Shown here: positions 16,661 through 29,597 of the stretch, piece by piece
Position numbering within the stretch: the stretch's first letter is position 1
Layout: the number at the start of each line of letters is the position of its first letter
Source: Simplicispira suum
GTDB taxonomy: Bacteria > Pseudomonadota > Gammaproteobacteria > Burkholderiales > Burkholderiaceae_C
Length of the DNA: 64,000 nt
Reading direction: 5' to 3'
Assembly (NCBI RefSeq): GCF_003008595.1
Contig: NZ_CP027669.1
Location: 1,612,001 to 1,676,000, forward strand
The notes under the pieces: model-generated
Seen by the model: only the letters and a program-made list of their open reading frames with translations
What the model was told of the DNA's origin: nothing
The model's database searches: none
Translations under genes and position numbers: made by a program

Positions 16661-16724
16661 ACTATTGAATAGATAGCTGTTGACGCTTACCCAATAAGCG
16701 CTAGAGCCCAATTTGACCAGATAT
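16661..16724 (+). repeat. Dispersed repeat, copy 2
   Basis: CTATTGAATAGATAGCTG then ACGCTTACCCAATAAGCGCT and AGAGCCCAATTT: two palindromes in tandem. The right part is shared with the uvrA-flanking copy at 26.24 kb and runs directly into the uvrA fragment, so the duplicated block includes part of the repeat. Confidence 0.7.
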
Positions 16725-16928
16725 TTCCGTAGGTAGTGCCCCGTATGGCTCGCCGGGTTGTCTGCGAGCTGCTCCGGCGTTCCCATGCCCACCACGGTGC
16801 CACCGCCGGCGCCGCCCTCGGGCCCCATGTCGATGATCCAGTCGGCCGTCTTGATCACGTCCAGGTTGTGCTCGATGACGACGATGGTGTTGCCGGCGTC
16901 GCGCAGTTGGTGCAGCTTTTGGAGCAGC
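16692..16928 (-). pseudogene. Duplicated 3' fragment of uvrA (left boundary of island)
   Basis: These 237 bases align without gaps to 26258-26494, the 3' end of intact uvrA plus flanking repeat, with about 20 mismatches by hand count (roughly 91-92% identity) and a central stretch of about 80 identical bases. The minus strand encodes the UvrA C-terminus ([20 protein letters not shown] ... GHYLRKYL). The uvrA stop codon is lost here (TGA to TGG). It is not functional; it marks a direct repeat flanking the 9.5 kb accessory region. Confidence 0.9.
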
Positions 16929-16971
16929 TTACGCGGGCACAATGATCCCATCAACCCGAAAGCGCTCAGGC

Positions 16972-19900
16972 ATGTCCCGTATTTTCGACAACATTGAACT
17001 CGATCTGCTCGACGCCCTCAAGGCGAGCTTAGAAGTGGCGCACCGCGCTGACTTTTGCATCGGGTACATGAACCTGCGTGGCTGGCAGGCTCTCGACGAA
17101 ACCATCAACCACTGGGCACCAGACGCCGGTCAGGTCTGCCGCGTGTTGGTGGGCATGCAGCGGCCACCGTACGAAGAGATCAGGGAAATCTACCGGCAAA
17201 CCGGTGAAGTCGGCTTGATCGACAACGCGACCGCCAGCCGCCTGAAAACCCAGTTTGCAGCCCACCTGCGGGAGCAGATCACGCTGGGCATCCCCACCGG
17301 ACAAGACGAAGCCGGGCTGCGCAGACTGGCCCGGCAACTGCGCGCGGGGCAGGTCGTGGTGAAGTTGTTTTTGCCCTACCCCTTGCATGCCAAGCTCTAT
17401 TTGCTGTTTCGTGACGATGTCAACAACCCGATCACCGGTTTTGTGGGCAGCAGCAACCTCACGCTGGCCGGGCTGGCCAAGCAAGGTGAACTGAACGTGG
17501 ACGTGCTGGACCACCTCGGCACACAAAAGCTCTCGGCGTGGTTCAACGCCCGATGGGAAGAGCGTTGGGCACTAGATATTTCGGGCGATTTGGCCGCCAT
17601 CATCGAAGCCAGTTGGGCGCGCGAAGAAGCCATTGCGCCGTACCACATCTATCTGAACATGGCGTACCACCTCAGCACCGAGGCGCGGGCTGGGCTAAGC
17701 CAGTTTCGGCTGCCAGTGCGTTTTGAGCAAGACCTGTTCGAGTTTCAGAAAAGTGCGGTGAAGATCGCTGCCCGCCACCTGCACCGCCGTGGCGGCGTGA
17801 TGATTGGCGACGTAGTGGGCCTGGGCAAAACCATGATGGCCACCGCGCTGGCACGCATGTTTGAGGACGATTTGGGCTACGAGACGCTCATCATCTGCCC
17901 GAAGAACCTCGAACCCATGTGGGAGCAATACCGAACCGAATACGGCCTGCGCGGCATGGTGTTGCCGGTCTCGCAAGTCACCAAAAAACTACCGAATCTC
18001 AAGCGCTACCGCTTGGTGCTGATCGATGAAAGCCACAACCTGCGCAACCGTGAAGGCCGGCGCTACAAGGCCATCGCCGAATACATCAAAAGCTGCGATG
18101 CCAAGGTGATCCTGCTTACGGCTACGCCGTACAACAAAACCAAACACGACCTATCAGCACAACTGCGTTTGTTCATCGACGAGCGGGCCAACATCGGCAT
18201 CCGGCCCGAGCGGCACATGCGCAAACACGGCATCAGCGAGGCCGACTTTGAGCGCAGGCACCAATGCCGGGTGCATTCCATTCTAGCCATCGAGAAGAGT
18301 GATGAATTTGACGACTGGCGCGAGCTGATTCGTCTCTACATGGTGCGCCGCACCCGCAGCTTCATCATTCAGCACTACACCGAAGCCGACAAGCAAGGCC
18401 GCCGCTACATCGCTGGCAGCGACGGTGAAAAGCGCTACTTTCCCGTGCGCAAGCCCTTGTCGGTCACCTTCGCGGTCGATGAGGCTGACCCGGCCGACCG
18501 GTACGCACGCCTCTACTCCGTTGGCGTGGTGGAGCAGATCAACGCCCTGCATGTGCCGCGCTACGGTTTGGGCCTGTACGTTGATCCGGCGGAAGAAAAG
18601 CAGGCAACGCCCGCTGAGCGCAAGCTCATCGAAAACCTGGGGCGCGCGGGTAAGCGCCTCATGGGGTTCTGTCGCACCAACCTGTTCAAGCGGCTGGAAT
18701 CCAGCGGCTTTTCATTCTTGCAGTCCATCGACCGCCATGTGCTGCGCAACCAGATCTACCTGTACGCGATTGAGAATGGGCTGGACCTCCCCGTGGGGGT
18801 GCTGGACGCGGGCTTGCTGGACTTGGAGCGCGTCGACGAAGACGCCGAGGGCGTCGAGGGAGACCCGGAAGACTTGCTCGATGGCTTGGTAGACGCCGTC
18901 GCCGACGAAGACGGATTGCCAGACGGCATGGCCCGCGCGAAGGCGGTGTATGACCAATACGCCAGCGTCTACAAAAAGCGCTTCAAGTGGATTCGCCCCA
19001 ACCTGTTCAGAGCCAAGCTCGCGCAAGCCTTGGCAGAGGACACGCAAACGCTCACCGAGCTGATGAACAGCCAGGGCCCGTGGTCTGCCGAGCTGGACCA
19101 CAAATGGCAAGCCCTGCGCCGCATGCTCACAAGGGCACACGGCAAAGACAAAGTGCTGGTCTTCACCCAATTTGCCGACACCGCGCGCTACCTGGAGCGT
19201 GAGGCGCGCAAGGCCGGCATCACCCAGGTAGCGGTAGCCACTGGCGCCAGTGCCGACCCTTATGCATTGGCCTGCCGTTTCAGTCCCAAATCGAATGGCA
19301 AAACAGTGGCCAAGGCCGACGAAGTGCGCGTGCTCATCTGTACCGACGTGCTCTCAGAAGGCCAGAACCTGCAAGACAGCAGCGTCGTCGTCAACTTCGA
19401 CCTGCCCTGGGCCATCATCCGCCTCATCCAGCGTGCGGGCCGGGTGGACCGCATTGGCCAGCAGGCAGAAGAAATTCATTGCTATTCGTTCCTGCCGGCC
19501 GATGGTGTGGAGCAGCTCATTCAACTGCGCTCGCGCATCCGCCAGCGCCTGCAAGAAAACGCCGAAGTGGTGGGTACTGACGAAGCCTTCTTCGAAGACG
19601 ACGAAGCCAGCACCATCCGCGACCTGTACACGGAAAAGCAAGGCGTGCTCGACGATAGCGACGACGAGGTAGACCTTGCCTCTTACGCCTGGCAAATATG
19701 GAAGCAGGCTACGCAGGGAAACCCCGACCTCGCCCGCGCCGTCGAATCGCTCCCGCCCGTGGTGTATTCGGCCAAGGCCTTTGCGCTGGACGAAAGCCGG
19801 TTTCCGCCATTGGGGGCTGACGCCGGCAAAGGCGGCGCGCTTGTTTACGTCAAATCGCCCGAGGGCAACGACCACCTCGCCTGGGTGGGCGCCAACGGCA

Positions 19901-20364
19901 AGACCGTGACCGAATCGCAGTTCACCGTACTGCGCGCTGCGGAGTGCGGGCCGGGCACCCCTGCCGTGCAACGCCTTGCCGCCCACCATGAGTTGGTCGC
20001 CCAAGGATTGCAACTGGCGGTGAGCCAGGACAAAGCAGTGGGTGGCGGCCTGGGCCGCCCCAGCAGCCCGCGCCGTCGGGCTTACGAGCGCCTCAAGCCT
20101 TACGCCACCGAGCAAATGCAAACCCTGTTTCGCGACGACGAGCTGGAGCGCGCCCTCGACGACATCTACCAGCGCCCCCTGCTGGAAACCGCCGCTGATT
20201 TGCTCAACCGCCTCATGCGCAGCGGCGTGAACGACGAAGAGCTGGCTGAAGCGGTGAAATCACTGCGCGAAGAAGGGCGGCTGACCTATGCCGAAGACGA
20301 TGCAACGTTGCGAGAACCGCGCGTGGTGTGCTCCATGGGGCTTGTGGCAAAAGAGGGGGCTTGA
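16972..20364 (+). CDS. SF2 (SNF2-like) helicase with N-terminal PLD-type nuclease domain
   Basis: 1130 residues. The N-terminal PLD-superfamily module has HAKLYLL near residue 138 and [10 protein letters not shown] near 159. The SF2 motor has Walker [15 protein letters not shown] (~281), motif [10 protein letters not shown] (~351), [10 protein letters not shown], motif V/VI region [20 protein letters not shown] and [11 protein letters not shown] (~820). Related helicases occur next to large adenine methyltransferases in restriction and defence loci. ATG 16972 (MSRIFDNIE) matches the family N-terminus; ATG 16942 is an alternative. It starts 44 bases after the uvrA fragment ends, with no promoter I can identify. 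Role inferred: DNA translocation coupled to cleavage. Confidence 0.85.
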
Positions 20365-20369
20365 AGCCA

Positions 20370-20538
20370 TGCGCAACCGCAACACGCTGGAGTTTTTGGG
20401 CCTTTGGGAGCAACTGCAAACCCTGCGTTTAACAGTAGCGAAATCGAGACCTTTAAAACACAGGCTGGGCTCGACAGCCTTCACATCTCCCCCAAAAAAC
20501 GGATTGATTCCCGCCTGACTAGTCACCGCAAACTTTGA
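20370..20538 (+). pseudogene. Frameshifted, truncated KilA-N domain gene remnant
   Basis: Translation from ATG 20370 gives MRNRNTLEFLGLWEQL, a typical start of KilA-N domain proteins. About 50 bases on, the frame must shift (one base apparently missing near 20417) to continue with NPAFNSSEIETFKTQAGLDS and ISPKKRIDS, again KilA-N-like, ending at TGA 20536-20538. Intact proteins of this kind are several times longer. A decayed gene between the helicase and methyltransferase genes; it may have been an accessory or regulatory DNA-binding protein of the locus. Confidence 0.55.
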
Positions 20539-20572
20539 GCGCGCGCTACGGGCTTGATTCCGAAAGATAGAA

Positions 20573-23500
20573 ATGCAGGCTTTCAACCAAGAACACCTCA
20601 AAAACTACCGGTTCAAACACCTGTTCAACGAACTCGGCTGGGACGCGCCCGCCCAGCAACAGCCCTACAGCGTGACCGTGGGTGAAGCCACTTGGTTGTT
20701 AGACGTGGTGGCGCTCAAAAAAGGCGTGCAGGTGTTGCACTGCCAGCCCGGCGCACAAGGGCAGATGCCCGATTACGCCACGCGGCAAAAAATCGAACGC
20801 AAGGTCACGCCCGATGTGCGCGAACATCTCATCGTGTTCAGCAACGGCGCCAAAACCATTCAAGTCTGGCAATGGGTAACCCGCCAAACCGGCAAGCCCG
20901 CGCAATACCGCGAAGTATTTTTCCGCCAAGGCGAAGCGCCCGAGCTGCTGACGCAAAAGCTCAGCCGCCTGCACTTTGCGTTGGACGAAGAAGAGCTGCT
21001 CACCGTGCTGGGTGTCACCGCCCGGTTGGACGACGCCGCGCCGCGCGACAAGGTCACGAAGAAGTTTTACACAGCGTTCGAGGCACAGCGCAAAGCCTTT
21101 GCCGCCTTCATCGACGGCATTCCAAACGATAGCGAAGACCAGCGCTGGTACACCGCCGTGGTGATTGACCGGCTCATGTTTTTGTGGTTTTTGCAGGAAA
21201 AAAGCTTTCTGAACGGCCAAACCGAATACCTGCAACTGCGCCTGCAAGCCCATCTGGACGGTAACCACGGGCAGAGCTTCTACAAGCGCTTCCTCTCGCC
21301 GCTGTTTTTCAAAGGATTCGCGCAAGAGCGTACGCCAGAGACTGCCGCCGCCATCCATGCTGAGTTCGGCAACGTGCCCTACTTGAACGGTGGCCTGTTT
21401 GCCCAGCACGAGCTGGAACAGCGCTACGGCGAAGCGCTGGATATTGCCGACAGCGCCTTTCAAAAGCTCTTTGCCTTCTTCGACGAATGGGAGTGGCACC
21501 TGGACGAGCGCCCGCTCAAGAGCGGCAGAGAAATCAACCCTGATGTGCTGGGCTACATCTTTGAAAAGTTCGTCAACCAGAAGCAAATGGGGGCGTACTA
21601 CACCAAAGAAGACATCACCGAATATATCGGCAAGAACACCATCATCCCAGCCCTGCTGGGCAAAGTGCGCGCCGAACACCCCGCCGCGTTTGATGCGCTG
21701 GCCTGGCCGCTGCTGCAGCAAAGCGGCGACGCCTACCTTTACCCCGCCATGCTCAAAGGCGTGGACATGGCCTATCCGCCAGAGGTCGAAAATGGACTGG
21801 ATACCCAGATGCCCAATCTCCTGGCCCGCCGCAAACCCTGGAACAAGCGCGCCGATGAGGCGGTGAGCCTGCCCACCGAAATCTGGCGCGAAACCATTGC
21901 CCGCCACCAGCGCACGCGCGAGGTTCGGGCCAAGCTCGCAGCGGGGGAGTTGACCGAGGTGGGCGACCTCATCACCTACAACCTCAACATCCGCCAGTTT
22001 GCGCAAGACCTCATCGAGGGCTGCACCGACGTAGCCCTGCTCAAAAGCTTCTGGTTCAACCTGGCCGGCCGCATGCCGCGCCAGAGCAACGAGAAATTTC
22101 GCCACGGCCTGAGCGTGTTGGACCCCACCTGTGGCTCCGGCGCCTTCCTATTTTCCGCGCTGGGCATCTTGAAGCCGCTGTACGACGCCACCCTGCGCAC
22201 CCTGCAAGCCGTGCGCAGCGACGCGCTGATTGCGGGCGAGAAAAGTAGCCCTGAAAAATGGGCCGAGGTGGACGAGCTGCTGGCCCGCTTTGCCGCCACT
22301 GGCTCAGAGCGCGCACAAGACTACGCCGTCATCAAACACATCATCGTCCACAACCTCTACGGGGTGGACATTGAGAAACAGGCCACTGAAATCGCCAAGC
22401 TGCGCTTGTTCTTGAAGCTGGTGGCCCTGCTGGAACCGGACGATGCCATTGAACCGCTGCCCGATATCGACTTCAACATCCGCCATGGCAACACCTTGGT
22501 GGGCTACGCCACGGCCGATGAAACCGAGAAGGCGGTGAAGGGTGCTACCCAAGGGAATCTGTTCAGCGACGCGTGGGAAGACATTCGCATCCGCCTCACT
22601 GCCGTGGAGCAGCAGTACAACAACTTTCAGATTCAGCAAGTGCAGCGCGGCGGGCATGTTTCCGCTGCCGACAAACAGGCACTGGTGCACACGCTGGGTG
22701 AGTTGGAGGAAATGTTGAACTTCCACTTGGCGCGGGAGTACGGCGTCAACACCACGAATACCAAGGATTTTGAAATTTGGAAGAAGTCGCATCAGCCATT
22801 TCATTGGTATGTGGACTTTTATCCGTTGATGGCTGGTGGTGGATTTGCCTGTGTTGTTGGGAATCCGCCGTTTGTAGAAATCAGGCCTTCTAATGTGAGT
22901 TATATTTTGCGAGGCTACGAGACAATTGGATGTGGAAACTTATATGCACCAATAGTAGAAAGGTGCACTGTATTAGCTTGTGCTGGATGGCTTGGACTGG
23001 TTACTCCGATGAGTCTTTTGTGTACCGATAGAACGGTATCTCTGAGGGGGCTAATGTCCTCGCAGAACAATTGGATATCCTCGTATGATATGCGACCAAG
23101 CAGTTTGTTTGAGGGAGTGGCTCAACGACTGTGTCTTCTGATTTCATCGCATGCAGATGAAAGTGGTTCCACGGCGTCAGGAGGATATCGCCGTTGGAGT
23201 AGCGAAGAGAGAACGGCGTTGTTGGATACGACTTGGTTTGCTCGGCTCTCAATAGATCACTTTCAAGGCGCTACTCCTTGGCCCAAAATTTCCCATGAGG
23301 TTGAAAAAACCATATTAGGGAGTCTTGTGGGCGGAGGCGTTGTTGCACATTTATCAAAAAATTCGCCGCCTATTTATGTTCATCGTATCGTTCGATACTT
23401 CGTCAAAGCATTGAATAAAGCACCGTTATTTGTTGATGCCCAAGGAGTGAATGGAAAATCGGATGACTACAAAGCTTTGAGTGTTGATCCTCAATTTTCA

Positions 23501-23884
23501 GATGTGATTTTGGCATGTTTGAATTCTTCCATTTTTTATTGGTACTGGCGATTGACCTCAGACGGTTTTCATTGCGGCTATGGGGATATCTACAGATTTC
23601 CATTTGATGGAAGCTCATTGCTTTCGTACGATACTGAAATATCCGAGCTTGTAAAATTGCTGATGGTTAGTTTCGAGGAAGGCTCGGTCAAAAAGTCGAT
23701 CGCAACGAAGGCGGGGAGAATTTTCTACCAAGAATTTAGCCCCAAGGGTGCCAAATCGATCTTGGATGAAATTGATGGAATTATTGCTACTTCATGGGGT
23801 CTTAATCCTGAAATGGTGGACCACATAATTAACTACGATATCAAGTACCGCATGGGTTTCGTTGGAGATGCGGGCGATGATTGA
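20573..23884 (+). CDS. Large N6-adenine DNA methyltransferase (Eco57I/PglX-like) with C-terminal specificity region
   Basis: 1103 residues. SAM motif I LDPTCGSGAFLFSALG lies near residue 517, and catalytic motif IV NPPF (VVGNPPFVEIRPS) near 763, giving m6A specificity. The N-terminal ~150 residues (FNELGWDAPAQQQPYSV ... IVFSNGAKTIQVWQW) may be a nuclease-like or adaptor domain; no PD-(D/E)XK motif is certain. The last ~340 residues, the presumed target recognition domain, are encoded by clearly AT-richer DNA. Partner of the upstream PLD-helicase. It resembles a type ISP/DrmMI/PglX enzyme but without fused helicase. Overlaps the next gene. Confidence 0.85.
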   Translation: MQAFNQEHLKNYRFKHLFNELGWDAPAQQQPYSVTVGEATWLLDVVALKKGVQVLHCQPGAQGQMPDYATRQKIERKVTPDVREHLIVFSNGAKTIQVWQWVTRQTGKPAQYREVFFRQGEAPELLTQKLSRLHFALDEEELLTVLGVTARLDDAAPRDKVTKKFYTAFEAQRKAFAAFIDGIPNDSEDQRWYTAVVIDRLMFLWFLQEKSFLNGQTEYLQLRLQAHLDGNHGQSFYKRFLSPLFFKGFAQERTPETAAAIHAEFGNVPYLNGGLFAQHELEQRYGEALDIADSAFQKLFAFFDEWEWHLDERPLKSGREINPDVLGYIFEKFVNQKQMGAYYTKEDITEYIGKNTIIPALLGKVRAEHPAAFDALAWPLLQQSGDAYLYPAMLKGVDMAYPPEVENGLDTQMPNLLARRKPWNKRADEAVSLPTEIWRETIARHQRTREVRAKLAAGELTEVGDLITYNLNIRQFAQDLIEGCTDVALLKSFWFNLAGRMPRQSNEKFRHGLSVLDPTCGSGAFLFSALGILKPLYDATLRTLQAVRSDALIAGEKSSPEKWAEVDELLARFAATGSERAQDYAVIKHIIVHNLYGVDIEKQATEIAKLRLFLKLVALLEPDDAIEPLPDIDFNIRHGNTLVGYATADETEKAVKGATQGNLFSDAWEDIRIRLTAVEQQYNNFQIQQVQRGGHVSAADKQALVHTLGELEEMLNFHLAREYGVNTTNTKDFEIWKKSHQPFHWYVDFYPLMAGGGFACVVGNPPFVEIRPSNVSYILRGYETIGCGNLYAPIVERCTVLACAGWLGLVTPMSLLCTDRTVSLRGLMSSQNNWISSYDMRPSSLFEGVAQRLCLLISSHADESGSTASGGYRRWSSEERTALLDTTWFARLSIDHFQGATPWPKISHEVEKTILGSLVGGGVVAHLSKNSPPIYVHRIVRYFVKALNKAPLFVDAQGVNGKSDDYKALSVDPQFSDVILACLNSSIFYWYWRLTSDGFHCGYGDIYRFPFDGSSLLSYDTEISELVKLLMVSFEEGSVKKSIATKAGRIFYQEFSPKGAKSILDEIDGIIATSWGLNPEMVDHIINYDIKYRMGFVGDAGDD

Positions 23885-25379
23885 CCTTTCCCCAGCCCAA
23901 GCCGCTGACCGCATCGCCGCGCTACTGGCCGCCTCCGAAAGCCGCACGCTTGATTTCAAACGCATCAGCAACAAACAAAGCCGTATGTACGAGGCGGTCT
24001 GCGCCTTTGCCAATTCCGAGGGCGGCTTGCTGGTGATCGGCATGGGCGACGCCAAAGCCATGAAACCGGGCGACAAGGCGCAAAGCCGCGTGTTTGGTAC
24101 CGAAGAAAACCCAGAGGGCTTTGACGACTTTCGGCGCGGGTTGCTTAACCGCTTCACCCCGCCCATCAACAAGTTGCACTGGTTACGGCTGCCCTGCACG
24201 CTGCACAACGGCCAGCCTGGCCATGTGGTGATACTGCGGGTGGAGAAGAGCGAACAGGTGCATTCGATCGTGGGCAATGGGACCTGGGCGCGCATGGACG
24301 CGAGCAACCGCGAGCTGAGCGCGGTGGAGATTGCCGACCTGGCCTACCAGCGCGGTGTGAAGAGTGCCGAGACGCTGCCCATGCCGGTGGCGCTGGATCT
24401 TCTCAACACGGATGCCTGGCGCAGTTACTGCGCCACGCGGGGCCTGGCCGATACGGATTTGGCGGTGCGCCTGCCCCGGCTGGGGCTGGCGGTGCCTGTG
24501 GACGGTGTGCTGCAACCCTTGTTGGCTGCGCTGCTGCTGTTTGCCGATGAGCCGGGGGCTTTGCTGGCCGGGCAGGGTATGCGGGCAGACATTCGCGTTT
24601 TTCACTACAAGGGCCGCACGGTGCAGCGCGGCGAGGTACCCAACCTGTTGTTACCGGTGAAAACCATTGCTGGCCCGGTGGTGGAGCAGATCGCCAAAGC
24701 GCAGGCTTACGTGTTGGAGCGCTTGGCCGTGGGGCTGACGATGGAGGGCTCGGGTTTCAAGGCGCGATACCGGTTCCCTGAGCGTGTGGTGAAAGAGGCG
24801 ATCACCAACGCGGTGATCCACCGCGACTACCGGCTCAACCGCGATATTCAGATTCGTATTTTTGACGACCGGGTCGAGGTGGAAAGCCCAGGCCGCTTGC
24901 CGGGCAACCTGACGCCAGCCACGATCGACAAGACGGGCTCGGTACCCCGCAACAGCCTGCTGGCGCGGCATTTGCGCGAGTTCCCCAACCCGCCCAACGT
25001 GGACGCGGGCGAGGGCGTGCCCATGATGTTTGCGCAGATGGAGCAGGCGAGGCTGTACGAGCCGCTGTACCGCGAACAGCTGGAAACAGCAGTGCCCACG
25101 CTGCTGGTGACCTTGTTGAATGAAGAGCGCCCACCGCTGTGGGTGCAGGTGAGCGACTGGATTGACCGACACGGGCCCATCACCAACAGCAAGTTGCGTG
25201 AGATGTCGGGGCTGGACACGCTCGCCGCCTCTAAGCAACTCAAGCAGTGGGTGGGCCAGGGGGTGTTGGTGGCTTTGCCGGCGCCATCGCGCCAGCAGGC
25301 GAGCTACACCAAGCCGGAGTTGGCGGGGCTGGCCGATCTGTCTGGTTCATTATCTTTGGGCTTGGATAATGAAATGTGA
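23877..25379 (+). CDS. AlbA_2 (Schlafen-like) ATP-binding protein with C-terminal winged helix
   Basis: About 500 residues. The N-terminal AlbA_2/Schlafen-type module has ESRTLDFKRIS and YEAVCAFANSEGGLLVIGM. The central GHKL-like ATPase region has RFPERVVKEAITNAVIHRDY and FDDRVEVESPGRLPGNLT. The C-terminus looks like a helix-turn-helix (GPITNSKLREMSGLDTLAASKQL). Such proteins occur in defence islands and as putative regulators; biochemical role unknown. ATG 23877 overlaps the methyltransferase stop by 8 bases (ATGs at 23868 and a GTG at 23862 are alternatives), so the genes are coupled. Its last codons lie in a TTCATTATC palindrome. Confidence 0.8.
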   Translation: MIDLSPAQAADRIAALLAASESRTLDFKRISNKQSRMYEAVCAFANSEGGLLVIGMGDAKAMKPGDKAQSRVFGTEENPEGFDDFRRGLLNRFTPPINKLHWLRLPCTLHNGQPGHVVILRVEKSEQVHSIVGNGTWARMDASNRELSAVEIADLAYQRGVKSAETLPMPVALDLLNTDAWRSYCATRGLADTDLAVRLPRLGLAVPVDGVLQPLLAALLLFADEPGALLAGQGMRADIRVFHYKGRTVQRGEVPNLLLPVKTIAGPVVEQIAKAQAYVLERLAVGLTMEGSGFKARYRFPERVVKEAITNAVIHRDYRLNRDIQIRIFDDRVEVESPGRLPGNLTPATIDKTGSVPRNSLLARHLREFPNPPNVDAGEGVPMMFAQMEQARLYEPLYREQLETAVPTLLVTLLNEERPPLWVQVSDWIDRHGPITNSKLREMSGLDTLAASKQLKQWVGQGVLVALPAPSRQQASYTKPELAGLADLSGSLSLGLDNEM

Positions 25380-25442
25380 AGACGACAAAAACCTTTGTGA
25401 ATCAAATGCATAGGCAATTCTTCATTATCTTTTGCTGTGTTT
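25346..25442. repeat. TTCATTATC palindrome plus half-site, copy 1
   Basis: Perfect 9-base inverted repeat TTCATTATC (25346-25354) and GATAATGAA (25365-25373) with a 10-base centre, encoding the last residues of the AlbA_2 protein. A lone half-site TTCATTATCTTT follows at 25431-25442, just before the DprA-like gene. A second palindrome/half-site pair lies at 26001-26087. Confidence 0.75.
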
Positions 25443-25448
25443 TTGTCC

Positions 25449-26024
25449 ATGCAAATCTGGCAGATCACCCAGCATGAGAGGGCATGGATGGGCCAGGGCA
25501 GCCAGGCACTGCTGGATACGGCGTTAACGGCATTTTTTGCCTCTCGCCAATGCCCCGGCACCGCCATTCGCGCCGCGATGGACTGGGCGCTGGAGCAGGC
25601 TCGCGCCAAACATGCCGTGGTCAGCGGGTTTCATTCGCCACTGGAGCAGTCGGTGCTCAAGGTGTTGCTGGCGGCTGGCAGCCCTGCGGTTCTGGTGCTG
25701 GCCCGCCCGGTGGCGGGTGCCAAGCTGCCGCCCGAATGGCGTGATGCTGTGGAAAAAGGGCATTTGGCCGTGGTCAGCGATGCGTCCCCACCAGCAGGGG
25801 CCGCCCGCCGCCTGACCCAGCAGCTTGCCACCGAGCGCAACACGCTGGTTGTGCAGTGGGCGCAAAGCTTGGTGGTGGCGTATGCAAGCCCGGGCGGCTC
25901 ATTGGCTGCGCAAGTGGCGCTGTGGCACCACGCGGGCGGGAAGTACAGGTGCTTGTGCCGACCGCCATTCAGCGCTGATCTACGCTGGCTGGAACGTGAT
26001 TTCATTATCTTTCGCCCAAGATAA
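25449..26024 (+). CDS. DprA/SLOG-like nucleotide- or DNA-binding protein
   Basis: 191 residues from ATG 25449. The pattern ASRQCPGTAIRAAMDWALEQ, KHAVVSGFHSPLEQSVLKVL, SPAVLVLARPV and later ATERNTLVVQWAQSLVVAYA with SPGGSLA follows the Rossmann core of DprA/Smf (SLOG superfamily), without DprA's flanking SAM and winged-helix domains. DprA binds single-stranded DNA and loads RecA; SLOG domains also sense nucleotide signals in defence systems. The assignment is by pattern, not alignment. Last gene of the island; its stop lies in the second TTCATTATC palindrome. Confidence 0.55.
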   Translation: MQIWQITQHERAWMGQGSQALLDTALTAFFASRQCPGTAIRAAMDWALEQARAKHAVVSGFHSPLEQSVLKVLLAAGSPAVLVLARPVAGAKLPPEWRDAVEKGHLAVVSDASPPAGAARRLTQQLATERNTLVVQWAQSLVVAYASPGGSLAAQVALWHHAGGKYRCLCRPPFSADLRWLERDFIIFRPR

Positions 26025-26087
26025 TGAGCTGGGGTTTTGCAATAAACTGTTAAATTTCAATGACTTAGCGTGGAGTTCATTATCTTT
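26001..26087. repeat. TTCATTATC palindrome plus half-site, copy 2
   Basis: TTCATTATC (26001-26009) and GATAATGAG (26020-26028), an 8/9 inverted repeat with 10-base centre covering the end of the DprA-like gene, then a half-site TTCATTATCTTT at 26076-26087. Same layout as copy 1: palindrome at a gene end and half-site about 75-85 bases on. The DNA between the half-sites differs, so this is not a simple duplication. Confidence 0.75.
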
Positions 26088-26238: not shown

Positions 26239-26290
26239 ATAGCTTCCAGCGCTTTATCAATAAGCGCTAGAGGCCGATTTGGCCAAATAT
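26239..26290 (+). repeat. Dispersed repeat, copy 3, covering the uvrA stop codon
   Basis: CATAGCTTCCAGCGCTTTAT then CAATAAGCGCTAGAGGCCGA. Its minus strand encodes the last residues of UvrA and the stop codon, so the UvrA C-terminus (KSASSAY) is repeat-derived. Confidence 0.7.
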
Positions 26291-29200
26291 TTACGCAGGT
26301 AGTGCCCGGTATGGCTCGCCGGGTTCGCCGCGAGCTGTTCTGGCGTGCCCGTGCCCACCACGGTGCCACCGCCGGCGCCGCCCTCGGGCCCCATGTCGAT
26401 GATCCAGTCGGCCGTCTTGATGACGTCCAGGTTGTGCTCGATGACGACGATGGTGTTGCCGGCGTCGCGCAGCTGGTGCAGCACCTTGAGCAGCAAATCG
26501 ATGTCGGCAAAGTGCAGGCCGGTGGTGGGCTCGTCCAGGATGTAGAGCGTGCGGCCGGTGTCGCGTTTGCTGAGTTCTTGCGCCAGCTTGACGCGCTGCG
26601 CCTCGCCGCCCGAGAGCGTCGTCGCGCTTTGCCCCAGGCGCAGGTACGACAGGCCCACGTCCAGCAGGGTCTGCAGTTTGCGCGCGATGGTGGGTACGTC
26701 CTTGAAGAAGGCGTAGGCGTCCTCCACCGTCAGCTCCAGGATGGCCGCGATGTTGCGGCCCTTCCACTGCACTTCCAGCGTTTCGCGGTTGTAGCGCTGG
26801 CCGTGGCAGATGTCGCAGGGCACGTAGACATCGGGCAGAAAGTGCATTTCCACCTTCACCACGCCGTCGCCCTGGCAGGCTTCGCAGCGCCCGCCGGCCA
26901 CGTTGAAGGAAAAGCGCCCAGGGCCGTAGCCGCGTTCCTTGGCCAGATTCGTCTCGGCCATCAGCTCGCGGATCGGCGTGAACAGACCGGTGTAGGTGGC
27001 GGGGTTGCTGCGCGGTGTGCGGCCAATGGGGCTCTGGTCGACGTTGATGACCTTGTCGAAGTACTCGATGCCCTCAATGGCTGCGTGCGCCGCCGGCTCG
27101 TCGTGCGCGCGGTAAAGCTGGTGCGCCACCGCCTTGTGCAGTGTGTCGTTGACCAGCGTGCTCTTGCCCGAACCCGATACGCCCGTGACGCAGGTGAACA
27201 GCCCCACGGGGAAATCCACACTCACGCCCTGCAGGTTGTTGCCGGTGGCGCCCACCACGCGCAGCGCCTGCAGCGCGCCCTGGCGGGCCACATGCTCGGC
27301 CATGCGGGCAGCGCGACGTTCCCCGGCTTCGGTGATCGGAAAGCGCGACTTGCCTTTGGCCAGCGCGGGTGCGGCCTGCGCCAGCACGGGCAACCAGGGT
27401 GTGCGCCGAGCGGGCACGGCAATGCGGCGCGTACCCGCCAGGTACTGGCCGGTGAGCGAATCGGGATTGGCGCGCACCTGGTCGTACGTTCCCTGGGCCA
27501 TCACGCGCCCGCCGTGCACGCCCGCGCCGGGGCCCATGTCGACGACCTGGTCGGCGGCCCGCATCATGTCTTCGTCGTGCTCGACCACGATGACGCTGTT
27601 GCCGATGTCGCGCAGGTGTTTGAGCGTGGCAATCAGCCGGTCGTTGTCGCGCTGGTGCAGGCCGATGCTGGGCTCGTCGAGCACGTACATCACGCCGGTG
27701 AGGCCCGAGCCAATCTGGCTGGCCAGGCGAATGCGCTGCGCTTCGCCGCCGCTCAGGCTCTCGGCGCTGCGGTCCAGGCTCAAATAGCTCAGTCCAACGT
27801 CGTTCAGGAACTGCAGGCGCGTGGCGATCTCGCGCACCACCTTGTCGGCAATGTCGGCCTTGGCGCCTTGCATCTGCAGCTCGGCAAACCACTGGTGCGC
27901 GGTGGACAGCGTGGCGTGGCTCACCTCCCAAATGGCGCGGGCCTGCGCGCCCTCGCCAACCTTCACAAAGCGCGCCTCGCGGCGCAGGCGCGTTCCGTGG
28001 CAGGCCGGGCAGGGCTGCGACTGGCGGTAGCGGGCCAGGTCGTCGCGCACCACGCTGGAGTCGGTCTCGCGGTAGCGCCGCTCCATGTTGGGCAGGATGC
28101 CTTCGAAGGCGTGCGTACGCAGCACCGGCTTGCCCTTGCTGGCGCCGCTGTCGATCACGTACTGGAAGGCAATTTGCGCTTCGCCCGAGCCTTGCAGCAC
28201 CACCTGCCGCACGTCCGCAGGCAGTTCCTCGAACGGGGTTTCCACGTCAAAGCCGTAGTGCGCGGCCAAGCTTTGCAGCATGGCGAAGTAGTAGGCGTTG
28301 CGCTTGTCCCAGCCTTTGATGGCGCCGCTCGCCAGGCTGAGCGTGGGGAAGGCCACCACGCGCGCCGGGTCGAACACCTCGCTGTGGCCCAGGCCGTCGC
28401 AGGTGGGGCAGGCGCCCATGGGCGAATTGAATGAGAAAAGGCGGGGTTCCAGCTCGGGCAGCGAGTAATTGCATACCGGGCAGGAGAATTTCGAGCTGAA
28501 GGCATGCTCGGCGCCGCCGTCCATCTCCAGCGCCAGCACGCGGCCATGGCTCTCGCCCGCGCTGGCGCCCACGCGCAGCGCCGCTTCGATGCTCTCGGCC
28601 AGGCGCTGCTGGGCGTCCGGGCGCACTTTGAGCCGGTCGATCACCACATCGATGTCGTGTTTTTCGGTTTTTTTGAGCTGGGGCAGGTTTTCTGCTTCCA
28701 ATACCTGGCCGTCGACGCGAAAACGCACGTAGCCCAGGGCCTGCATCTGCGCGAACAAATCGGCAAATTCGCCCTTCTTCTCGCGCGCTACCGGGGCCAG
28801 CACCATCAGGCGCGTTTCGGCCGGCAGCGCCAAAACGGCGTCAACCATCTGGCTCACCGTCTGCGACTGCAGCGGGACGCCGTGCTCCGGGCAGTAGGGC
28901 GTGCCGGCGCGGGCGTAGAGCAGGCGCAGGTAGTCGTGAATTTCGGTGACCGTGCCCACGGTGGAGCGTGGGTTGTGGCTGGTGGCCTTTTGCTCGATGG
29001 CGATGGCGGGCGACAGGCCCTCGATCAGGTCGACGTCGGGCTTGTCGAGGCGCCCCAAAAACTGGCGCGCATAGGCCGACAGGCTCTCCACATAGCGCCG
29101 CTGGCCCTCGGCGTACAGCGTGTCAAACGCCAGGCTGGATTTGCCCGAGCCCGACAAACCGGTGATCACGACCAGCTGGTTGCGTGGCAGATCCAGGTCG

Positions 29201-29388
29201 ATATTTTTCAGATTGTGCGTGCGCGCGCCGCGAATGGAGATGCGGCCTTGCGCGCGCAGCACCTGGGCCAACGGGCGCCCTGCGTCGGCTTCCAGCGGGC
29301 GGTCGGGCGCGGTGGCCGGAGCGAGGGGTTCAATGGGGTTCACGGTGGGCGCGCGGGATGGGCGCGCAGGCTCGGAAAAACTCTCCAT
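26257..29388 (-). CDS. uvrA: UvrABC excinuclease subunit A
   Basis: Damage-sensing ABC ATPase of nucleotide excision repair. Two nucleotide-binding halves: Walker [21 protein letters not shown] and [15 protein letters not shown], signatures [11 protein letters not shown] and [11 protein letters not shown]. Zinc-binding Cys pairs CPVC...CPTC and CEAC...CDIC are intact. About 1043 residues, roughly 100 longer than E. coli UvrA, mainly from an N-terminal linker of about 50 residues and internal insertions. Start MESFSEP at 29388; a longer frame to 29436 adds unlikely sequence. The C-terminus lies in a dispersed repeat. A 237-base copy of its 3' end occurs at 16692-16928. Divergent from the MFS gene. 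Confidence 0.96.
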
Positions 29389-29597
29389 GATAAAGAAAGC
29401 CCACTTCGCACGCACAGCCAGTCCAGGTTTGACCACCCGACCCCACCCAGGGTTTGCCCCAGGGCTTGGGCGCCATCGCGCACAATCGCAGCTTTCCAGC
29501 CTTCGCCGGCCATCTCAGCGCCGGCCTGCTTCGCGTGCCCGACACCACCGCTTCCGCCTCGGCCTCCCACAGCCCGCGCGCCGATCTTGCGCACCGC

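Follow-up and report, generated by a model that had tools for sequence, protein, structure and literature searches.

Genes 1 and 2 of a four-gene cassette in Simplicispira suum were found to recur side by side across bacterial genomes and plasmids, and are read as a two-chain, ATP-dependent restriction-modification pair in the style of Type III and Type ISP enzymes, with gene 3 as a backup effector and gene 4 as the setter of its threshold (probability about 0.68). The cassette occupies positions 16972–26024 of the window, the whole 64-kb stretch of the 4.15-Mb genome that was analysed. Its four genes lie on the + strand and encode, in order, a phospholipase D (PLD)-SNF2 translocase, an Eco57I/PglX-like adenine methyltransferase, a Schlafen-HATPase protein, and a DprA-like SLOG protein, with their nearest named relatives in Comamonadaceae. 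The core pair is read as a widespread, apparently unnamed two-chain PLD-translocase restriction system that recurs, among other forms, as the four-gene cassette. In the literature covered (titles, abstracts and passages, with most subscription papers outside this scope), no named two-gene system of a PLD-SNF2 protein and a methyltransferase was found.

Co-occurrence and distribution

A species-genome collection was scanned with gene 1, giving 39 loci, and a methyltransferase was found downstream of the translocase in 31 of them. The remaining eight comprise six in which the contig breaks off no more than 529 bp from the translocase match and two with a truncated translocase gene. Nine of the 31 loci were assigned to class A (methyltransferase nearer that of the window, 64–88% identity, 37% for L032), and 22 to class B (nearer a second methyltransferase type, ~30% overall identity to gene 2). 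Six class A loci carry all four genes in order, two lie on contigs that end inside the methyltransferase, and L032 differs. The gene 1 family is very large, with at least 8000 homologous candidates, all scored candidates being homologous, and no gene 1 match was found in 50,697 phage records at E 1e-30. Matches were present in 24 plasmid records, including Cyanobacteria, Actinomycetota, and Desulfuromonadales, and in the 6/6 records examined, from three phyla, a methyltransferase lies next to or near the translocase; in L160 an insertion sequence separates two methyltransferase pieces.

Frequencies were counted with the window's own genome included. Gene 1 is present in 10/399 same-family genomes, and gene 2 in 5/399 same-order genomes, with the translocase adjoining it in 5/5. 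Gene 3 was found in 12/369 same-family genomes, and gene 4 in 4/399 same-order genomes, where it lies behind the methyltransferase in two (the window and L123), behind a solo Schlafen in L127, and without either neighbour in L128. Within a more distant clade, the SLOG gene stands behind the methyltransferase, with no Schlafen in L123 and with a TPR-bearing Schlafen after it in L129; neither was seen in L125 and L130. From this pattern of co-occurrence and frequency, genes 1 and 2 are the core, and genes 3 and 4 are portable.

An original prediction for this DNA had assigned the four genes their positions and domains, which translation and Pfam confirmed (gene 4 scoring slightly under its cut-off), and had proposed restriction or defence with the nuclease-translocase split from the methyltransferase, which is supported. 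Its four-gene syntenic unit recurs in six of the nine class A loci, and its suggestion that the last two genes are accessory agrees with what was seen of them: some loci lack them, others have different genes in their place, and both also occur away from the core. Missing from it were the already wide distribution of the core pair, the duplicated piece of uvrA, the repeat sites that flank gene 4, and the change of frame near the end of that gene.

Nuclease-translocase

Gene 1 contains PLDc_2, SNF2-rel_dom, and Helicase_C domains by Pfam, with a single PLD stretch. For all active-site counts, relatives of at least 75% of the query length were used and shorter ones were excluded; gene 1 residues are numbered on P0001, which begins 10 residues upstream of the likely start. 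PLD residues H149, K151, S170, N172, and E183 are kept in 43/44 relatives, and Walker A (G293–K296) and D362–H365 (DESH) in 44/44. The predicted structure was poor (predicted local distance difference test, pLDDT, 63.9), and its fold matched RapA and SNF2 remodellers; since the PLD site could not be resolved in it, the PLD assignment rests on sequence conservation. Among the PADLOC 2023 models, the best match was C3a139 'HKD+Snf2' at 154 bits, followed by weaker matches to many SNF2 defence helicases. Of the conditions under which the original prediction would have failed, a disrupted PLD or helicase active site is not seen in the conserved residues, the models being too poor to confirm the PLD part, and a single model for the whole set was not found in PADLOC 2023, which matches parts only.

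Methyltransferase and alternative readings

Gene 2 contains Eco57I and MmeI_Mtase domains by Pfam, and its DP..GSG and NPP motifs are invariant in 37/37 relatives. Compared with six class A relatives in steps of 100 residues, residues 1–700 are 68–98% identical to the window (83–95% among class A relatives for residues 301–600), and residues 801–1100 are 23–32% identical in five of the six, L003 reaching 64–73%. GC content is 0.59 before residue 760 and 0.44 after. The drop in identity, together with the low GC content, is the pattern of a recognition domain replaced between relatives. The N-terminal ~365 residues are recognisable even between methyltransferase classes A and B. A mediocre predicted structure (pLDDT 69.6) matched BrxX/PglX best, then CamA, M.BseCI, and M.TaqI (best 50 of 398 matches).

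An unlikely reading makes gene 2 a Type IIG enzyme in its own right, with nuclease, methyltransferase, and recognition in a single chain, and gene 1 a separate helper or an independent defence protein. This would suit the best PADLOC 2023 model for gene 2, REase_MTase_IIG (793 bits, full length), and the first ~120 residues, which are predicted to be alpha/beta, but no D...ExK nuclease signature is conserved in residues 1–120 of 43 aligned methyltransferases, the best fold matches (again the best 50 of 398) are methyltransferases, and translocase and methyltransferase stand side by side from either search start. A Type IIG enzyme holds nuclease and methyltransferase sites in one chain; methyltransferase motifs only were found in gene 2, where a cryptic nuclease might still lie. 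Since a conserved D...ExK is absent from the methyltransferase N-terminus, the PLD of gene 1 is the likely cutter under the two-chain reading.

A block of phage replication without site cutting, as in BREX (bacteriophage exclusion) or DISARM (defence island system associated with restriction-modification), with the PLD acting only on DNA ends or processed DNA, is improbable. The methyltransferase does resemble BrxX/PglX and DrmMI, and the translocase DrmD and BrxH; against this, NCBIfam scores fall far under the family cut-offs (no match above them for any of the four proteins), no DUF499 (PF04465) was found in the genome (0/1, with the control found in 1/14 genomes), and several loci have no further core gene behind the pair. 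That gene 1 is a Type IV modification-dependent enzyme beside an unrelated methyltransferase, like SauUSI with its order of PLD, ATPase, and reader domain (passage in PMC12707154), is highly improbable given the methyltransferase downstream in 31/39 loci and near the translocase in 6/6 plasmid records of three phyla, and given that no reader domain was found in gene 1 by Pfam.

Methylation motif and proposed mechanism

For the two-chain reading, a measured motif is offered by the Synechocystis plasmid pSYSX, where a translocase 49.7% identical to gene 1 (annotated 'helicase-related protein') is followed, two small genes beyond, by a methyltransferase 39.8% identical to gene 2 over 1121 columns. 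One of the small genes is annotated VapC, and no Schlafen or SLOG is listed behind the pair. In the pSYSX gene table, incomplete by its makers' account, a single further DNA methyltransferase appears, as a member of a type I cluster. By elimination the gene 2 homologue is M.Ssp6803IV, an enzyme that the original study reportedly tied to slr6050 and found essential. The elimination runs as follows. M.Ssp6803IV and V are placed on pSYSX in a passage of PMC6604393, and V is identified as slr6095 of the type I cluster in passages of PMC6560206 and PMC7296061, which leaves IV for the gene 2 homologue. The M.Ssp6803IV motif is given as GA(m6A)GGC (m6A, N6-methyladenine), with 1446/1451 sites methylated (passage in PMC7296061). 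Because the complement, GCCTTC, contains no A, only one strand can be marked, which suggests Type III/ISP-like restriction for the core; the logic of one-strand methylation is described for Type III in a passage of PMC12707154, where BREX is named as alike.

Reasoning from the component proteins and from how known enzymes work, we infer cutting by collision. Gene 2 would recognise an asymmetric motif, mark one strand with m6A, and double as the specificity factor for restriction, with gene 1 docking on it, probably on the N-terminal ~365 residues. At an unmarked site gene 1 would translocate along the DNA, and two convergent units from oppositely oriented unmodified sites would meet, complete one PLD active site, and cut. 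HKD-type PLD nucleases of this kind act as dimers, and with a single HKD motif per chain, cutting would need two copies of gene 1. With a mark on one strand only, replication yields one daughter duplex that lacks it, so that an enzyme able to cut at a single site would be lethal to its host. A nuclease that works only in pairs, carried by a translocase, would solve this problem, and half-modified daughter DNA would be spared.

Accessory genes and their exchange

Gene 3 contains SLFN_AlbA_2 (46.3 bits, cut-off 25.3) and HATPase_c_4 domains by Pfam, and a C-terminal MarR-like winged helix is weakly supported (13.8 bits, cut-off 24.6). E26, K33, and D63 are present in 12/12 relatives and D31 in 11/12; the acidic residues E26, D31, and D63 we take to be RNase residues. 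In PADLOC 2023, gene 3 matches parts of Argonaute-system models at 47 bits. Gene 4 scores 27.7 bits for DNA_processg_A against a Pfam cut-off of 29.6, which its relatives in L123 and L129 exceed (37.4 and 46.6 bits); SGFHSP and E70 are invariant in 14/14 relatives, and the PADLOC 2023 match is PsyrA at 57 bits. No gene 4 match was found in 72,556 plasmid records at E 1e-8.

Gene 3 would act as a Schlafen-type RNase gated by its ATPase part, stopping translation when a phage blocks the core. AriB of PARIS (phage anti-restriction-induced system) cuts tRNA according to PMC12409363, and Schlafens with a kinase-like domain and a winged helix-turn-helix (wHTH) are listed as backup effectors beside BREX and BREX-related systems in a passage of PMC12839542; gene 3 is therefore read as a guard effector. 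The signal for gene 4 would be a nucleotide or a DNA end, and its binding would determine the effector threshold; that the SLOG protein is the nucleotide-sensing partner of gene 3 is likely, and is the weakest step of the proposal.

Methyltransferases were compared with a tree of 37 translocases, 30 of them with a class label, built by a quick method and with long branches among the far rows. The methyltransferase class changes seven times on this tree, at least five of the changes being forced by the starred branches. With shuffled labels the mean was 8.6 changes, and 70–74 of 500 shuffles were as low as the observed seven, so that methyltransferase class is hardly clustered on the translocase tree.

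The genes behind or between the core pair are likewise exchanged. The sets counted here overlap, and named domains rest on L004, L010, L015, and L032, other loci being tblastn matches to these. Window-type Schlafen and SLOG genes are present in 6/31 loci. Of the 22 class B loci, 13 carry an AriA/HEC-01A-like ATPase and a DUF4276 protein, both as in L004, where they lie behind the class B methyltransferase at 18888–20761; eight carry another Schlafen-HATPase gene between translocase and methyltransferase, and two a large AAA protein. Pieces of the window-type Schlafen and then SLOG are kept in 4/22 class B loci; in L012 just the Schlafen piece remains, and in L023 just the SLOG piece. In class A locus L032 (13411–19757), the genes behind the core pair instead encode a class II Argonaute and a SIR2-domain protein. 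As side observations, the Schlafen-HATPase between the core genes of L004 (13357–15060) has an AlkZ-like C-terminal match, and on an Anabaena plasmid (L158, 7503–9301) the place behind the methyltransferase is taken by two genes with the annotations ATP-binding protein and DUF4276 protein.

Weight of the evidence

Several observations weigh against the restriction reading with its two accessory roles. The structure models of genes 2 and 1 are mediocre (pLDDT 69.6 and 63.9), and the best fold match of gene 2 has a template modelling score of 0.23, its leading matches scoring ~0.2 by query length. The gene 2 N-terminus could be a degenerate or unusual nuclease and hence a second cutter, as the PADLOC label of Type IIG would have it. 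The motif comes from a 40% identical homologue and was assigned by elimination, and the methyltransferase neighbouring the translocase on Rhodococcus plasmid L133 has no BLAST match to gene 2. As to the accessory genes, L029 is a core pair without any of the accessory genes sought, in 7.1 kb; of the 11 gene 3 genomes examined among the 12, four carry the translocase and one (G251) a translocase remnant, and six (L108, L109, L154–L157) showed no core gene in the 14–16 kb fetched. In the window, the last ~28 SLOG residues (~25935–26024) are out of frame relative to three of the four relatives compared, with the conserved core intact.

If true, the restriction reading would supply a mechanism and, through M.Ssp6803IV, a measured motif for many genes that carry annotations met among gene 1 relatives, namely 'helicase-related protein' and 'NgoFVII family restriction endonuclease'. 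It would also provide a natural series of pairings between a single motor and several specificity proteins, and a clear example of a restriction core that stays the same while the putative guard effectors behind it are exchanged.

Composite sites around the SLOG gene

Two composite sites of the same layout frame the SLOG gene, each consisting of a 28-bp palindrome and a half-site at +75. At the 3' end of gene 3, as at that of gene 4, the 12-base TTCATTATCTTT forms the left arm of the palindrome, and a further copy follows 75 bp after each, giving four copies genome-wide, all at these two sites (reversed control, 0). The palindrome of site 1 ends 3 nt before the Schlafen stop codon. In related loci and the window together, 16 half-site matches, one locus being counted twice, lie at +75 (14), +76 (1), and +55 (1). 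Palindromes with at most one mismatch were found at 10 places in 7/399 same-family genomes, nine of them beside a Schlafen or SLOG gene (reversed control, 1 genome). A sequence model of 23 sites found two full-length sites in the genome, which are the two framing the SLOG gene, along with two partial reverse-strand matches inside those sites and one weak partial match elsewhere (E 0.055).

In related loci the model found further sites, most of them where a Schlafen, SLOG, or DUF4276 gene has its 3' end, and weak ones (17–19 bits) accompany the four most distant solo Schlafens. Sites occur without a SLOG gene in L004 and L039, and doubled sites without a SLOG gene between them in L109 and L127. 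The tie to these genes is loosened by 11/25 palindromes that lack a half-site (≤3 mismatches, +40 to +97), and by a palindrome in G029 (L110) without a related gene nearby. Palindromes in viral contigs were set aside as chance: among 11 such stretches, the one in L105 is followed by a half-site at +75, but neither core nor accessory genes were recognised around it; viral contig L096 was uninformative because the contig ends.

The composite site could be an operator for gene 3 or 4, an RNA element, or a recombination site. When four sites were folded, the right arm of the palindrome could pair with either the left arm or the half-site; an RNA switch may be at work, and protein binding fits the pairing data equally well. 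Integron attC boxes were not seen by eye in the composite-site consensus. The site is a concrete, testable loose end. A wider reading, that of an unnamed ATP-dependent restriction class in which one conserved PLD-SNF2 motor is freely re-partnered with divergent methyltransferase/recognition proteins, cuts only when collision joins two half-active PLD domains, is backed by interchangeable translation-stopping guards, and carries cassettes of an accessory gene and a ~100-bp site moved by site-specific recombination outside integrons, is doubtful.

Insertion at uvrA and feature coordinates

The cassette lies at the 3' end of uvrA, of which a copy forms its left border (256-bp repeat family D1, 89%). 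This fragment ends 7 nt upstream of a promoter-like GGCACAAT, and the same eight bases stand 30–34 nt before the translocase start in 7/15 other loci compared, CACAAT in 9/15; the L011 start used in this comparison is misplaced by ~14 nt. In 6/26 same-genus genomes (own included in the 26), no more than ~110 bp separate the left flank from the end of uvrA, which indicates an empty site without the cassette; the remaining same-genus genomes gave no left-flank match in the stretch fetched. In L005, a Burkholderiaceae metagenome-assembled genome, the cassette has the same neighbours on both sides, and a search for a duplicated end of uvrA found none. Congeners resemble the intact right uvrA copy more than the left copy; L054, for instance, is 94.2% identical to the former and 89.7% to the latter. 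These alignments fit a transfer in which recombination at uvrA left its end duplicated, the left copy having drifted since or being donor-derived. Elsewhere in the same genome, four PF01420 type I specificity-subunit matches were found at three places, near 3.21, 3.33, and 3.74 Mb (G000 C1), and the genome thus appears to hold other restriction systems.

Table 1. Coordinates of the cassette and neighbouring features in the window; starts of genes 1 to 4 are the likely ones from comparison with relatives.
Feature	Position	Strand	Evidence and remarks
PLD nuclease + SWI2/SNF2 translocase, 1130 aa (gene 1)	16972..20364	+	Pfam, residue conservation, fold matches to RapA/SNF2 (low-confidence model)
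Adenine-specific DNA methyltransferase, recognition region included, 1103 aa (gene 2)	20573..23884	+	Eco57I, MmeI_Mtase; PADLOC IIG; fold matches
Putative methyltransferase target-recognition region (~residues 800–1075)	22970..23800	+	Identity drop, GC drop
Schlafen (AlbA_2) + HATPase_c_4 protein (gene 3)	~23877..25379	+	Pfam, 12-sequence alignment; overlaps methyltransferase gene end
DprA-like SLOG protein (gene 4)	~25449..26024	+	Pfam, alignment; last ~28 residues in another frame than 3 of 4 relatives compared
Duplicated uvrA 3'-end fragment, left border of cassette	16684..16928	-	90.6% identity to 26250–26494 over 245 bp
Promoter-like GGCACAAT	16936..16943	+	28 nt before gene 1 start codon; putative promoter
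Composite site 1 (28-bp palindrome + half-site TTCATTATCTTT at +75)	25346..25432	+	
Composite site 2, layout as site 1, 655 bp further on	26001..26087	+	Overlaps SLOG stop codon
Full-length uvrA, right-hand neighbour of cassette	26257..29436	-	Translation; uvrA matches in same-genus genomes

Comparison with known systems

Type ISP and Type III enzymes have a translocase in common with the cassette, and the asymmetric one-strand m6A motif and the need for two sites would be further likenesses. Type ISP enzymes are one chain with an Mrr-type nuclease, and the Type III nuclease is not PLD; the window and related loci instead hold two separate genes, a PLD-SNF2 protein and a methyltransferase with built-in recognition.

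An HKD-SNF2 fusion, an N6-methyltransferase, and Schlafen-kinase-wHTH backup effectors are shared with the Type-2 BREX-related (BR) systems described in a passage of PMC12839542, but these are centred on DUF499 and carry DUF3780, neither of which was found in the four proteins by Pfam. The Hma system, considered for its helicase-methylase-ATPase pattern, was rejected, since HmaC is a DUF499 ATPase according to a passage of the same paper and DUF499 is absent from the genome; the HmaA model matched at 73 bits in PADLOC, with its best stretch at residues 716–848 only. Class 1 DISARM shares an SNF2 translocase and a DrmMI-like methyltransferase, but gene 1 scores 123 bits for DrmD against an NCBIfam cut-off of 610, and no separate DrmA, DrmB, or DrmC was seen among the four genes, for which no one-by-one search was made. 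For BREX, gene 2 scores 60 bits for PglX against a cut-off of 500.

The accessory genes touch on other systems. PsyrTA pairs PsyrA with a RecQ-type toxin; gene 4 matches PsyrA, but no RecQ-type toxin gene lies beside it. PARIS and HEC-01 are echoed by sister locus L004, whose AriA/HEC-01A-like ATPase and DUF4276 protein stand where the window has Schlafen and SLOG. The pSYSX pair of M.Ssp6803IV and a 'helicase-related protein' consists of the same two families as the core, in the same order, with two small genes between them.

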